From positions 1 through 49,511 of the forward strand of contig JARRJC010000012.1 in assembly GCA_037379885.1 (NCBI GenBank): 49,511 nucleotides of DNA, in the 5' to 3' direction. Under the pieces are notes generated by a model, which searched no databases, was not told the DNA's origin, and saw only the letters and a list, made by a program, of their open reading frames with translations. Position numbers and translations under genes: made by a program. This stretch comes from Limibacillus sp. (GTDB taxonomy: Bacteria; Pseudomonadota; Alphaproteobacteria; Kiloniellales; CECT-8803). Below are positions 8,301-19,326 of the stretch, in pieces (positions within the stretch are counted from its first letter, which is position 1; each line of letters starts with the position of its first letter).

Positions 8301-8389
8301 TCTCCCGCGCCCTCAAAAGGGGTTTTGCCGCACTGCACCATTCCATGGTCTAATCCCCGTAAAGCCCCAGCCCCGAACCGGAGAGAGCC

Positions 8390-11293
8390 ATGGCCCAGGC
8401 GGCCGAAGCCAAGAGCAGGGACGCAGAGACACTGGCGTTGCGCGACAGCCTGTTTCAACGGCTGAGGGAGCTGCGCGAGGGCCTTAAGGACGCGCCCAAC
8501 GCCAACCCAGTGGCGCAGAGCGCCTTTGAGATTTCCCGGCGTCTGGAACAGCGCGAGCTGAGCCTCGGCCAGCTCGCCGCGACCGCCCGGCTGCTGGCCG
8601 ACGACGCCTTTCTCGACCGGGCCCGGCGGCTCGACGACTATCTGGGGTTCTCGCCCGATCAGGACCTGGATGCGCGCATGGCGGATCAGGTGCGCGCGCT
8701 CTGCCGCGACGAGGCGGGGGCGCCGCTGCCCTTCGATGAGTTCCAGGCCTTTTGGCGGCGCGCGGCCTTCGGCATCGTCTTCACCGCCCATCCCACCTTC
8801 GGGCTTTCGCGCGGTCTGCATGGCGTCATCACCGACCTCGCGGGCGGTGGGGAGGAGGCGCAGCACGCCGCCCTCTCACGGCTGGCGGAGCTGGAGCACG
8901 AGCCGGAGCCGGAGATCACCCTGCCGCTGGAGCATGCCTGGGCGCAGGAGGCGCTGGCCAACGCGACGCGCGCCTACGACCGCCTGACCGCGATCCTGAT
9001 CGAAGAGGCGCGCGAGCGTTACCCGGAGGACTGGACGCGCTTCGACCCGCTGCCCTTCTCGCTCGCCTCCTGGGTCGGCTACGACCTGGACGGGCGCACG
9101 GATATCCGCTGGTGGGACTCCTTCCTGTTCCGGCTGACGGAAAAGGAGGGGCAGCTTGAGCGGCTGCGCCAGGGGCTTGCCGCGCTGCGTCAGGCGCAGC
9201 GCTTCGAGAAGGACGCCGACGCCGCGCTTCAGGCGCTGGAGGAACGCCTGGGCCGGGCGCTGGCCCGCTGCACGCGCGACCGCCAGGCCTTCGCCAAGGT
9301 GCCCCATGACAGGGAATCGGGCATGGCCGCGCTCGCCGAGGCGGCCAACCTCCTGACCGAAGAGGGCGCGGACCGGCTGGTCGATCCGGGCGAGATATCC
9401 GCAAAGCTGACGAGCGTGATCGAGGGGCTCGCCGACGCGGACGCCGCCGCCGCCCTGATGCGTCTGCGCGCCCAGGTGACGGCCCTGGGTCTGGGCAGCG
9501 CCCATATCCATTTCAGGATCAACGCGACGCAGGTCCACAACTCCCTCCGCGCCATGCTGGGGGAGGATGCGCTGGGCGACCTCTCCTCCCGCGTCGCGCT
9601 CTCGCGCCTGGAAAAGCGGGTCGCGCAGACCAAGCCGCAGAGCATCAACTTCGGCACGCTGGAACTGGAAACCGCGACGGCGATCCGCCAGGTGGCGCTG
9701 ATCGCCCAGCTCATCAAGCATGTGGACTCGGCGACGCCGCTGCGCTTCCTGGTGGCCGAGTGCGAATCGCCCGCGACCATCCTGGGGCTGATCCTGCTGG
9801 CCCGCCTTTTCGGGGTGGAGGAGCGCATCGACGTCTCGCCCCTGTTCGAGACGCCCGCCGCGCTGGAGCGGGGCGCGGGCCTGATCGAAGCGCTGCTGGA
9901 AAGCCCCGCCTACCGCGAGACCCTGGCCCGGCGCGGGCGGCTCTGTATCCAGACCGGCTTTTCCGACGCCGGGCGCTTCATCGGTCAGGTCGGCGCCACG
10001 CTCGCCATCGAACGCCTCCACATGAAGCTGGCGCGTCTGCTGGAGGAGGCGGAGCTCGACGAGGTGGAGCTGGTGATCTTCAACACCCACGGCGAGTCCA
10101 TGGGGCGCGGGGCCCATCCGGAATCCCTGCGCGACCGGCAGCTCTACATCCTCTCGCCCGCCGCGCGCGCCGCCTTCGCCGAGCAGGAGCGGCCGTTGAA
10201 GCACGAGTTCTCCTTCCAGGGCGGGGACGGGTTCCTCTTCTTCGGCAACGAGACGCTGGCGAGCGCGGTCCTCGCCGGGCTGCTTGAGGTCGAGTTGGAC
10301 GCGCCGCAGGCCGGGGCGGACCAGCTCTACGACGACACGGACCTCAGCCTCGACTTCTTCCTGCGGGTCAAATCCTATCAGGAGGAGCTATTCCACAGGC
10401 CCGAGTACCGGGAGGCGCTGGGCGCCTTCGGCACCAACCTGCTGTTTCCCACCGGATCGCGGAAGTCGCGCCGCCAGCACGACACGGCGAGCCCGGCGGA
10501 CCGGGGCGACCCGGCGCAGATGCGCGCGATCCCGAACAACGCGATCCTCCAGCAACTGGGCTTCGTCGCCAACATCGTCTCGGGCTTTTCCCGCGCCGCC
10601 GGTCTGGACCTGGAACGGCTGGTCGAGATGAAGCAGAAGTCCGACCGCTTCGCGCGCATCCTGCGTCTGGTCGCCGCCGCCAAGAAGCGCTCCTCTCTCC
10701 AGGTGCTCTCGGCCTACGCCGACCTCTTCGACAGCGGCTACTGGACCTCGCGCGCCTACTGCGGGGGCGAGGCCGGGCTGGGCGGTTCCTTCCGCGATCT
10801 GGCGGAGATCCTCACCGGCGACAGCCGCGCCCAGTCCGTGGGGCGGCTGGTCAATGGTCTCAGGCTCGATTCCATCGACCTGCACCGCCTGCTGGAGGAG
10901 GCGGGGCTGGAGAAGGGCAAGCGCCCCTCCGACCTGCGGCTGCGGCTCGACCTGCTGCATGCGATCCGCATCGCGCTGATCATGCACATCTACCTGCTGG
11001 CGGTTCGCCTGCCGCGCTTTTCGACGCGCAACGACCTGTCGCGCGAACAGGTGCTGGGCATGATCGTCTCGCTGGAGGTGCCGCCGGCGGTCAGCGCCCT
11101 GCGCGAAACCTTCCCCAAGCATCACCCGGCGGACACGGCGGCGCGCTTCGACGAAGCGGCCAGCTACGACCCGCTGGACCTGTCCGACTACGAGCGGCTG
11201 CACAGCGACTACCTGCAACCCATGGAGCGCGCCTACGCCGAGGTGCGGCGCATCTCCGTCGCCATCGCCCACTGTTACGGGGCGCATGGCTAA
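8390..11293 (+). CDS. Phosphoenolpyruvate carboxylase family protein with altered catalytic motifs
   Basis: A 967-residue protein, longer than typical bacterial PEPC (~880-930). The family is shown by VFTAHPTFG (His at residue 134), the MRAIPNNA segment matching the LRAIPW region, and a GFSDAGRF segment (523-530) at the place of GYSDSxKDAG. A conventional enzyme fixes bicarbonate onto PEP to give oxaloacetate. Several hallmark residues differ: the usual Lys of the GYSDS loop is Arg 529; the FHGRGG loop reads FNTHGESMGRG (564-574), replacing the catalytic His and first Arg by Asn and His; and the conserved C-terminal NTG is missing, the protein ending in AHG. The start follows GGAGAGA. It may be a divergent PEPC, or a family member with another or no activity. 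A tandem repeat overlaps its stop. Confidence 0.8.
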   Translation: MAQAAEAKSRDAETLALRDSLFQRLRELREGLKDAPNANPVAQSAFEISRRLEQRELSLGQLAATARLLADDAFLDRARRLDDYLGFSPDQDLDARMADQVRALCRDEAGAPLPFDEFQAFWRRAAFGIVFTAHPTFGLSRGLHGVITDLAGGGEEAQHAALSRLAELEHEPEPEITLPLEHAWAQEALANATRAYDRLTAILIEEARERYPEDWTRFDPLPFSLASWVGYDLDGRTDIRWWDSFLFRLTEKEGQLERLRQGLAALRQAQRFEKDADAALQALEERLGRALARCTRDRQAFAKVPHDRESGMAALAEAANLLTEEGADRLVDPGEISAKLTSVIEGLADADAAAALMRLRAQVTALGLGSAHIHFRINATQVHNSLRAMLGEDALGDLSSRVALSRLEKRVAQTKPQSINFGTLELETATAIRQVALIAQLIKHVDSATPLRFLVAECESPATILGLILLARLFGVEERIDVSPLFETPAALERGAGLIEALLESPAYRETLARRGRLCIQTGFSDAGRFIGQVGATLAIERLHMKLARLLEEAELDEVELVIFNTHGESMGRGAHPESLRDRQLYILSPAARAAFAEQERPLKHEFSFQGGDGFLFFGNETLASAVLAGLLEVELDAPQAGADQLYDDTDLSLDFFLRVKSYQEELFHRPEYREALGAFGTNLLFPTGSRKSRRQHDTASPADRGDPAQMRAIPNNAILQQLGFVANIVSGFSRAAGLDLERLVEMKQKSDRFARILRLVAAAKKRSSLQVLSAYADLFDSGYWTSRAYCGGEAGLGGSFRDLAEILTGDSRAQSVGRLVNGLRLDSIDLHRLLEEAGLEKGKRPSDLRLRLDLLHAIRIALIMHIYLLAVRLPRFSTRNDLSREQVLGMIVSLEVPPAVSALRETFPKHHPADTAARFDEAASYDPLDLSDYERLHSDYLQPMERAYAEVRRISVAIAHCYGAHG

Positions 11294-16510: not shown

Positions 16511-17365
16511 TCAGACCAGCCGCCTTGCGATCCGGCCCGCCGACGCGCCATAGCCGCCGCCGAAGAGGGCTGCGTGCACCAAAAGCGGATAGGTCAGGTA
16601 GAGTTCCCGCCTGACTTCGAAGAAGCCCGGCCGGATCGGCCGCAGTTCCCCGTAGCTTTCGAAGAAGGCCTCGCCGAACGGCCCGAAGAGCGTGCCGAAG
16701 GCCAATTCGATCTCAGGATCGCCGTAGTAGACCGCGGGGTCGATGAAGGCCGCGACCTTTCCGGCGTCGAACAGGATGTTCCCCGACCAGGCGTCGCCGT
16801 GCAGCAGGGCGGGTGCTTCCGGCTCCTCCAGAAAATCTTCAAGACGCCCGGCCAGGCGCTCCAGCGCGGCCCGGTCGTCCCGCGCGAGACCGCCGCGCTC
16901 TCCCGCCAGACGGATCGTCGGCAGCAGGCGCTGCTCGCGGAAGAAGTCGATCCAGCTTTCGGTCCAGGGGTTGGGCTGGTGCAGGGCGCCGATCAGCGTG
17001 TCGCGCTCCAGCCCGAAGGCCGGGGCGGTAACGCCGTGGAGCCGCGCCAGATGGTGCGCGGCGTCGCGCTCGCCCGCCTCGCCGCCCTGCCCGTCGTGCG
17101 GCACGAAGGTCATGACCAGCAGGTCGTCTTCGGCCAGGAGCAGTTCGGGCAGCGGCAGGGCGCTCTCGCGGGCGAGATAGGCCAGCATGTAGCCTTCGAT
17201 TGAGAGGCCGCCGCCGGGCGCGGTCTTCGAGACGACCTCCCGCCCGTCCGACAGGGTCAGGCGGCGCGCGTCCGCGATGCAGCCGCCGGCCAGCGGGCGC
17301 TGTTCGAGGATCCGCGCGCCGAGCGCTGCCTCCAAACGGTCCCTATGAGAAAAGGCTCCGGACAT
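16511..17365 (-). CDS. Fructosamine kinase family protein
   Basis: A 284-residue protein with an aminoglycoside-phosphotransferase-like kinase fold. The catalytic loop is LLHGDAWSGNILFD and the metal-binding segment AFIDPAVYYGDPEIELAFG, in the exact form of the FN3K/YniA family. The C-terminal RRELYLTYPLLVHAALFGGGYG is also typical. Such kinases phosphorylate fructosamines or ribulosamines on proteins or metabolites so that the sugar adduct falls off (protein deglycation). The N-terminal ATP-binding lysine is in EVVSKTAPGG. It is followed on the same strand, 22 bp upstream in gene order, by a low-Mr phosphatase; such pairs are frequent in proteobacteria, suggesting coupled repair, though this is inference. 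Confidence 0.9.
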   Translation of the reverse strand: MSGAFSHRDRLEAALGARILEQRPLAGGCIADARRLTLSDGREVVSKTAPGGGLSIEGYMLAYLARESALPLPELLLAEDDLLVMTFVPHDGQGGEAGERDAAHHLARLHGVTAPAFGLERDTLIGALHQPNPWTESWIDFFREQRLLPTIRLAGERGGLARDDRAALERLAGRLEDFLEEPEAPALLHGDAWSGNILFDAGKVAAFIDPAVYYGDPEIELAFGTLFGPFGEAFFESYGELRPIRPGFFEVRRELYLTYPLLVHAALFGGGYGASAGRIARRLV

Positions 17366-17387: not shown

Positions 17388-17906
17388 TCAGGCCTGTTCG
17401 CGACCCGCCGGGCGGTCCTGCTGCAAGCGGTCTTCCAGATGATCCAGAAGGGCGAGGCAGGCGACCTCCAACTGGTCCAGCATCGCCTCGAAGCCCCGCT
17501 CGTTGCCGTAGTAGGGGTCGGCGACCTGACCGGTGCCGCTGCCGGGCGTGAAGGCCATCATCATGTGGACCTGGGCGCGCGAGTCCGCGGGCTGGTAGTG
17601 CCGAAGCTGCTCAAGATGCCCGCCGTCCATCGCCAGGATGTAGTCGAACTCCTGGAAATCCGCCAGTTCCAGCTTGCGGGCCCGGAGCGTGGAGAGGTCG
17701 TAGCCGCGCCGTCCTGCGGCCTGTACGGCGCGCTCGTCGGGCGGTTCGCCCACGTGATACCCATAGGTGCCGCAGGAATCGACATGCAGCAGCCGGTCCA
17801 GGCCGCGCTTCTTGGCCATGGCGCGGAATATCCCCTCCGCGCTGGGCGAGCGGCAGATGTTGCCCGTGCAAACGAACAACACGCCAAAGGCTTTCGGGTC
17901 GGTCAT
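17388..17906 (-). CDS. Low molecular weight protein-tyrosine phosphatase family protein
   Basis: A 172-residue LMW-PTP. The phosphate-binding loop CTGNICRSPS contains the nucleophile C13 and R19, and the general acid is in DPYYGNE near the C-terminal third. In this family the enzyme either dephosphorylates phosphotyrosine proteins or acts on small phosphates; distant arsenate reductases share the loop but lack the DPYYG motif. It is in line with the downstream fructosamine kinase gene (22 bp gap), so it might remove phosphate from products of that kinase, which is speculative. There is no polysaccharide (wzc-like) operon nearby. Confidence 0.9.
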   Translation of the reverse strand: MTDPKAFGVLFVCTGNICRSPSAEGIFRAMAKKRGLDRLLHVDSCGTYGYHVGEPPDERAVQAAGRRGYDLSTLRARKLELADFQEFDYILAMDGGHLEQLRHYQPADSRAQVHMMMAFTPGSGTGQVADPYYGNERGFEAMLDQLEVACLALLDHLEDRLQQDRPAGREQA

Positions 17907-18024: not shown

Positions 18025-19326
18025 TTAATATTGGCGCCGGGGGCGCGGTTCGCTGGCTTTTCCCTCGCGAATGCGGCGGCAGGAGCCGTCGATCTCCGCC
18101 CGGTTCGCCTCAGCCGGGTTCTGCTCGAACAGCTCTTCCAGGCGCAGTCGCTCCGTCTCCGGCACCAGCCGTCCTTCGGCCTCCAGCGCCTTGTAGCGGG
18201 CCCAGACGGCGCGCTTCTTCTTCACCTGATGGGGCTGCCAGAGGTCGAGGTCGCGCGGCCCGTGATCGGAAAGGCTGGCGAGCGCGCCCGCCTCCAAAGC
18301 CGCCGCCACCAGGGCCGCCCCCCGCGCCGAGCGCATCAGGACGGCGTTGGAGCCGGGGTCGGCCTCGTGGTTCTCCGCCTGCTCACGCGTCGGCGCGCCG
18401 CCGGGCCAGACGTCGCTGGCGGCGATGTCGGCGGCCTCCCCGATGCCGTCGGCGCAGATCTTGCAGCGCCAGGGCAGGCTCCACTTGCTGTCGTCCTCGC
18501 CCCAGAAATCCAGATAGCTGCGTTCCACCACCTTGCCGTCCCTGTCCTCCATGCGGGTCGGACCGGGACAGCCGTAGCCGCGGTAGCGGATCGATTTCAG
18601 GTTCTCGAATTCGATCCCGGACTCCTCGACCCGCTCGGCCATGGCGGGGGTCTGCATGAAGCCGCCGCAGACCGGGGCCATCATCATCCGGCAGAGTTCG
18701 TCCACCCGCGGGTCCTCGCGCGCCAGATTGCGCAGGCCGGTCACGTCGCAGGGCGTGCCGACGAAGGCGAAGGGCTCCCCCCGGCTCAGGATTTCCTCCA
18801 TGCCGATCAGGGTCGCGGTCGGGCCATAGCGCGAGCCGGCCCCGGCCAGCACCTCGTCGCGGGTCCGGCTGATCTGCTGCTCGCCGAAGCTGGGCCGCTT
18901 CTTCGAGGGGCGGGCCTGCACCACGAAGGCGACGCGCCCGCTTTCCAGCAGGAAGATCGCCAGCGCCGTCAGCACGCCGCCCGTGGCCGCCTTGAAGCGC
19001 ACCTCCGGGTCGGCGGCGTAGAGCTGCGGCACCGTCCCGCTGAGCGCGCCCCAAACCGGATCAAGGATGCCGTCCGGGCTGCGCAGCGCTTCGGGCAGTC
19101 CCTCCAGATGCGTGCCGGGGCAGAGGCGGTAGATGCGGTCGACCTGCTCGTGGGTCAGGGCCGCGCCCGCCAGGGGCCTGAGGCTGCCCTCCGGCGTTGC
19201 GACGATCTCCAGGGCTTCCGGCGGCGCCAGCGATGCGCAGAGCCCGCAGCCGATGCAAAGACCCTCCTCGCAGATGCGGTAGAGGCGATCCGAAGGAGAG
19301 GGGCCGGCAGGAGTGGAATCGGTCAT
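18025..19326 (-). CDS. Coenzyme F420 hydrogenase/dehydrogenase beta subunit family iron-sulfur flavoprotein (FrhB-like)
   Basis: A 433-residue protein. The N-terminus has a ferredoxin-like cluster site GLCIGCGLC. The FrhB N- and C-terminal domains follow: AATGGVLTALAIFLLESG, AFVGTPCDVTGLRN, RYRGYGCPGPTRM and LPWRCKICADGIGEAADIAASD, with several additional Cys likely binding [4Fe-4S] clusters. Relatives include archaeal F420-reducing subunits, plant 7-hydroxymethyl chlorophyll a reductase and bacterial proteins of unknown substrate. There are no hydrogenase subunit or F420 synthesis genes in the window, so a role as a ferredoxin-driven flavin reductase is more likely than F420 chemistry. It is divergent from the sirtuin gene across 133 bp. 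Confidence 0.82.
   Translation of the reverse strand: MTDSTPAGPSPSDRLYRICEEGLCIGCGLCASLAPPEALEIVATPEGSLRPLAGAALTHEQVDRIYRLCPGTHLEGLPEALRSPDGILDPVWGALSGTVPQLYAADPEVRFKAATGGVLTALAIFLLESGRVAFVVQARPSKKRPSFGEQQISRTRDEVLAGAGSRYGPTATLIGMEEILSRGEPFAFVGTPCDVTGLRNLAREDPRVDELCRMMMAPVCGGFMQTPAMAERVEESGIEFENLKSIRYRGYGCPGPTRMEDRDGKVVERSYLDFWGEDDSKWSLPWRCKICADGIGEAADIAASDVWPGGAPTREQAENHEADPGSNAVLMRSARGAALVAAALEAGALASLSDHGPRDLDLWQPHQVKKKRAVWARYKALEAEGRLVPETERLRLEELFEQNPAEANRAEIDGSCRRIREGKASEPRPRRQY

Follow-up and report, generated by a model that had tools for sequence, protein, structure and literature searches.

A distinct lineage of predicted phosphoenolpyruvate carboxylases with a rewired active-site loop in Limibacillus sp. 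and other Alphaproteobacteria

A gene on contig JARRJC010000012.1 of Limibacillus sp. was assigned by sequence comparison to a distinct, large lineage of phosphoenolpyruvate carboxylases (PEPCs) that is separate from the canonical enzyme. The members of this mainly alphaproteobacterial lineage are probably active PEPCs (probability about 0.85), which would form oxaloacetate from phosphoenolpyruvate (PEP) and bicarbonate and refill the TCA cycle. No description of the lineage was found in the open-access literature, subscription journals lying mostly outside the coverage of that search.

Gene and predicted protein

The stretch of DNA analysed, referred to as the window, comprises 49,511 nucleotides. 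The gene lies on the + strand, like the choline dehydrogenase gene about 90 bp before it and the MoeB/ThiF-type gene that follows. Its position and length in the initial annotation (8390-11293, 967 aa) agree with the list of open reading frames. E. coli Ppc served as numbering reference, and the window residues were mapped to it by alignment. The features are given below, with counts over the 172 aligned sequences (rows) of the divergent family.

8380..8387, + strand: likely ribosome-binding site GGAGAGAG, read in the sequence just 5' of the open reading frame 8390-11293
8390..11293, + strand: divergent PEP carboxylase gene, ATG start, 967 aa, stop codon included (open reading frame list, Pfam PEPcase, full-length relatives)
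8783..8800, + strand: TAHPTF, residues 132-137, in VFTAHPTF (residues 130-137 of the 967-aa protein); catalytic His H134 corresponds to E. coli H138, H in 172/172
9515..9517, + strand: R376, corresponding to E. coli R396, R in 172/172
9839..9853, + strand: PLFET, residues 484-488; metal ligand E487 corresponds to E. coli E506, E in 172/172
9956..9976, + strand: GFSDAGR, residues 523-529; metal ligand D526 corresponds to D543, R529 stands at canonical K546; D and R in 172/172
10079..10111, + strand: rewired loop FNTHGESMGRG, residues 564-574; N565 for H579, T566 for G580, H567 for R581, E569 for G583; R573, corresponding to R587, is kept
10454..10462, + strand: GSR, residues 689-691; R691 corresponds to R699, R in 172/172
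10523..10534, + strand: RAIP, residues 712-715; R712 corresponds to R713, R in 172/172
11279..11290, + strand: C-terminus GAHG replacing NTG, read in the translation; the ranges matched between model and 1jqn end at residue 965 and at E. coli residue 881

Family membership and fold

Pfam assigned residues 204-577 to PEPcase (PF00311) with 72.9 bits against a curated cut-off of 22.4, and no further family was found in the 967-aa protein at an E-value of 0.001. The NCBI equivalog model for canonical PEPC (NF000584) gave 75.2 bits, far below its cut-off of 815. All 12 solved structures that matched the sequence at E-values up to 1 were PEPCs.

An AlphaFold model of the protein (pLDDT 86.7, pTM 0.88) was compared with E. 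coli PEPC, a check proposed in the initial annotation. The structural match to 1jqn gave a Z of 28.0 and an rmsd of 4.4 over 775 residues at 14% identity, and PEPC structures aligned with the model end to end. The top structural match was the maize enzyme 6mgi (Z 29.3), E. coli 1fiy reached a Z of 21.6, and Foldseek also ranked PEPCs first. Pyruvate kinase is a neighbour in fold only: its best match (Z 15.5 over 249 residues) covered the barrel part, with no match over the other two thirds of the model. The window protein is thus modelled with the whole PEPC fold, and its Pfam score, its fold and the seven residues described below place it in the bacterial/plant-type PEPC superfamily (PF00311). 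An archaeal-type PEPC, for which the same reaction is presumed, was rejected, as the subunits of that type have 55-60 kDa according to passages of PMC8100219, in contrast to the 967 aa of the window protein.

Conserved and replaced residues

The 172 family rows consisted of the window protein, 87 relatives (L003-L010 and L013-L092 without L060, whose frame is split), 20 of the 75 Sphingomonadales copies, 60 of the 68 class-wide matches and four plasmid copies. The class matches of G348, G429, G497 and G559 stayed outside these rows; three others and the window's genome were represented through other loci. The 45 canonical rows were E. coli, L011, L012, 30 of the 31 copies from the order of Erythrobacter sp. 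NAP1 and 12 of the 39 from the class. Reading frames were chosen by profile. Over the last ~120 residues the sequence alignment is unreliable.

H138, R396, E506, D543, R587, R699 and R713 were identical in all 172 family rows and all 45 canonical rows. Lys546, His579 and Arg581 are usually counted in the catalytic machinery of PEPC as well, and it is at these positions in the GYSDSxK and FHGRGG loops that the divergent family departs from the canonical pattern. In the 45 canonical rows K546 and all six FHGRGG positions were unchanged. Every family row had R at 546, in place of K, and T at the G580 column. The H579 column was occupied by N (102), D (68), S (1) and H (1), the R581 column by H (167) and G (5), and the G583 column by E (170) and D (2). 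Since the replacements are fixed in the same way across the 172 rows, those of the window protein are not lesions. The functional roles given to individual E. coli residues are general background, in part taken from passages of PMC11832675.

Much of this had been read correctly from the single sequence in the initial annotation: the TAHPT motif is kept, the Arg it reported for Lys at R529 aligns with K546, and the Asn and His it noted in FNTHGESMGRG align with H579 (N565) and R581 (H567), a pattern that goes beyond chance across the 172 rows. The NTG motif is absent, as stated there, and the C-terminus reads GAHG. The active-site role ascribed to NTG needs correction: passages of PMC3615186 assign its asparagine (N881) to the allosteric inhibitor site, and the loss of NTG therefore speaks about regulation and less about catalysis. 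The structural match to 1jqn ends with N881 opposite A965, and this end point is the only basis for pairing the two. K773, R832 and R587 also belong to the inhibitor site. The K773 column, within the unreliable C-terminal alignment, held L (88), R (20), F (19) and V (18) among the 172 rows, and R in the window protein. R832 was conserved in the window protein (R860) and in 169 of the 172 rows, as far as the weak alignment of this region can be followed.

Two copies stood apart. L215 (G491), a deep relative with 294 bits, has the loop FHTHGEKDARG with His retained at 579 and possibly represents a further sub-lineage. In a Novosphingobium metagenome (L060:3439-6243) the gene copy is split into two open reading frames, by an assembly error or because the gene is broken.

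Phylogeny and relatives

A tblastn search at E-values up to 0.001 revealed a relative encoded in 431 stretches of public genomes, the best 80 of which were kept. In a tree of 90 rows, 66 divergent and 24 canonical sequences were positioned on opposite sides of one long branch with a support of 100; the initial annotation had proposed such a phylogeny as a check. The tree was rooted at midpoint and the program warned of long branches; therefore, only the split between divergent and canonical sequences is claimed.

Four plasmid records carry a divergent PEPC, one of them in Burkholderia. The protein is annotated as PEPC in two plasmid records and as hypothetical protein in another. The divergent copy of genome G459 was almost identical in the tree to a plasmid copy of Methylobacterium bullatum (L146). 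Extracts of Roseobacter denitrificans show PEPC activity according to passages of PMC2749216, an activity that may come from either type of PEPC.

Distribution among genomes

The genome of the window (99.12% complete) was searched for a second, canonical ppc, as the initial annotation had suggested, and no PF00311 protein was found besides the divergent PEPC. A full-length pyruvate carboxylase was also not found among the candidates scored in this genome. An ATP-type PEP carboxykinase is present, which could also supply oxaloacetate; the carboxykinase search covered 38 genomes of the window's order and the ATP type only.

Among these 38 genomes, the window's own included, nine contained the divergent PEPC, seven a canonical-like PEPC, none both and 22 neither. 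Full-length pyruvate carboxylase was found in 20 of the 38, including five of the nine genomes with a divergent PEPC, and the two enzymes therefore do not exclude each other in this order. In the order of Erythrobacter sp. NAP1, 75 of 147 genomes had the divergent and 31 the canonical enzyme, none had both, and 41 had neither. Here, full-length pyruvate carboxylase was found in none of the 75, one of the 31 and nine of the 41 genomes, respectively, so that 32 of the 147 had none of the three enzymes. Together with the 22 of 38 genomes lacking a PF00311 protein, this indicates that the step is not indispensable. In the genomes of the named relatives (n = 45, covering 45 of 80 named loci), canonical PEPC was missing from 44, full-length pyruvate carboxylase from 42 and both from 41. 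Pyruvate carboxylase candidates were scored up to a number of 4 per genome in the Erythrobacter order, 12 in the named relatives and 14 in the window's order.

A sample of 387 alphaproteobacterial genomes contained 68 with the divergent PEPC, one copy being found in each, 39 with the canonical PEPC and a single one with both (G459, loci L210 and L262); at most two candidates were scored per genome in the class-wide searches, and copy numbers and absences apply within those. By chance, 15.8 shared genomes would be expected among the 147 (observed 0) and 6.9 among the 387 (observed 1); these figures ignore relatedness, so that formal probabilities come out too small, and the two samples, class and Sphingomonadales, overlap in some of their genomes and are not independent. 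Eight families (f18, f21, f48, f56, f65, f87, f93 and f98) hold both PEPC types, in seven of them never within one genome. Divergent and canonical PEPC thus alternate between genomes. Around the canonical-like copy of G459 no clear serine-cycle cluster was found; two of the seven neighbouring open reading frames scanned had a match (class-V aminotransferase, SfsA).

Gene context

The fetched flank contained one or more of the genes zwf, edd, glk and eda in 61 of the 80 named loci, and 51 of the 80 had three or four of these genes on the strand of the PEPC gene, typically in the order zwf-edd-glk-(eda)-PEPC. Four further genomes of the Erythrobacter order, which belong to a distant subclade, have the pathway genes next to PEPC in other arrangements: PEPC-zwf-pgl-edd-eda (L246, L247), PEPC-glk-zwf-pgl-edd-eda (L244) and a divergently transcribed one (L240). 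These differences show that the link to the Entner-Doudoroff pathway is more than one inherited gene order. In many sphingomonads the divergent PEPC would act directly behind this pathway.

The link was seen only in the Erythrobacter order: it was absent from 20 of 20 class-wide loci and from the surroundings of the window's gene. A set of 56 loci was drawn from the class-wide, order-wide and plasmid copies and from the named loci outside Sphingomonadales; four of them had zwf, edd and eda together, and two had single genes. The one family that recurred in 12 of these loci was an ABC-transporter ATPase, a ubiquitous type of protein. Other contexts of the divergent gene included succinate-CoA ligase genes in Phyllobacterium, enolase in Sphingobium and a glyoxylate/hydroxypyruvate-reductase-like gene on the Burkholderia plasmid. 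When 13 open reading frames of the window were compared with those of loci L003-L092, only a reductase was matched, and only in locus L086; the surroundings of the window's gene are therefore uninformative.

In two genomes of the Erythrobacter order a canonical PEPC follows zwf-edd-glk (L260 in G172 and L261 in G161; two of 30 canonical loci of this order, viewed with 1.5 kb flank). The slot is occupied by the divergent enzyme in relatives of the same order such as L033, from Erythrobacter sp. NAP1, and L049.

Proposed reaction

Canonical PEPC, represented by E. coli Ppc (1jqn), and the divergent family share the whole fold and the seven invariant residues, and they appear to replace one another, both across genomes and at one position in an operon. 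They differ in the pocket residues (R, N/D and H at K546, H579 and R581, an acidic residue at G583), in the GAHG-like end in place of NTG, in the low structural-match identity and in lineage. A PEP-binding enzyme that catalyses another reaction, such as a bicarbonate-dependent PEP phosphatase or the carboxylase of another enol phosphate, would fit the replacement of the K, H and R that every canonical row has at three positions, and also the pyruvate carboxylase found alongside in five of nine genomes of the window's order. We nevertheless consider this unlikely: R587 and H138 are invariant in the family, the divergent PEPC alternates with the canonical one, and a different reaction would leave the swap in the same operon slot of two genomes unexplained. 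The suggestion in the initial annotation that the protein is perhaps not a standard PEPC was thus justified as far as "standard" is concerned, given the separate lineage and 75 bits against 815, and the seven catalytic positions, the complete fold, the alternation and the shared slot weigh against the doubt that it is any kind of PEPC. Its remark that the protein looks functional is consistent with the strong conservation of the separate lineage in alignment and tree.

The PEPC reaction comprises the formation of carboxyphosphate and the subsequent carboxylation of the enolate (passages of PMC8100219). The divergent enzymes would follow the usual stepwise chemistry, with transfer of the phosphate to bicarbonate followed by carboxylation of the enolate, in a bicarbonate/phosphate pocket that appears to be rebuilt on one side. 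The exchange of Lys546 for Arg conserves the charge, and that of Arg581 for His may preserve some of it; His579 is replaced by Asn or Asp, and position 583 has gained an acidic residue. In E. coli PEPC, the H579N exchange reportedly leaves the enzyme active with a raised Km for PEP. Evidence against activity comes from Dictyostelium, where, as passages of PMC11832675 describe, PEPC mutated at the homologues of H138, H579 and R587 failed to rescue a knock-out.

The altered loop would also suit a catalytically dead PEPC that serves as regulator or PEP sensor. Such a role is very improbable, since no family row departs from the canonical residue at the metal ligands, at the catalytic His or at four of the arginines, and 44 of 45 carrier genomes contain no canonical PEPC to regulate. 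A decaying gene copy, to which the missing canonical residues might point, is hardly credible in view of the open frame, the identical replacements fixed across the 172 rows and the occurrence of the family pattern also in genomes of 1.3-2.0 Mb.

If the divergent enzymes are active PEPCs, a natural family that dispenses with Lys546, His579 and Arg581 would reveal which elements of the mechanism catalysis cannot do without. The family would then also account for the step from PEP to oxaloacetate in many sphingomonads, 41 of 45 genomes lacking both canonical PEPC and full-length pyruvate carboxylase by standard models.

Regulation

Some positions of the inhibitor site appear to differ from those of the canonical enzyme, and altered inhibition by aspartate and malate is therefore possible for the divergent PEPC, with less support than there is for the chemistry. 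A more specific proposal is that a further main PEPC lineage, common in Alphaproteobacteria, combines the rebuilt pocket (Arg 546, Asn/Asp 579, His 581, acidic 583) with weak aspartate/malate inhibition and is swapped with canonical PEPC inside Entner-Doudoroff operons. We would give this combination about even odds, given that the window protein has Arg and not a hydrophobic residue at K773. Divergent PEPCs may accordingly be of interest for metabolic engineering as enzymes with other feedback control.

Ppc1, the serine-cycle type PEPC of methylotrophs, is known for lacking regulation by TCA intermediates. The Ppc1 of Methylosinus trichosporium OB3b lacks the K and N of the inhibitor site and has L and A instead (passages of PMC3615186), and the K773 column of the divergent family is likewise mostly L (88/172); the reaction is presumed to be the same. 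That the divergent family is of this type is nonetheless next to impossible, as Ppc1 is described in the same passages as keeping the PEP-binding residues, with 33% identity to the canonical Ppc2, and L012, located beside three serine-cycle-like genes, keeps FHGRGG and groups with canonical PEPC. The identity was rejected on the replaced loop and on a divergent clade that excludes L011 and L012, Methylosinus Ppc1 itself being compared by description.

Other genes in the window

A PHROGs search gave no result. Both FrhB/FdhB domains (coenzyme F420 hydrogenase beta subunit) are present in the protein encoded at 18025-19326 (- strand). Nearby are genes for a fructosamine-kinase-like protein (16511-17365) and for a low-molecular-weight phosphatase (17388-17906).
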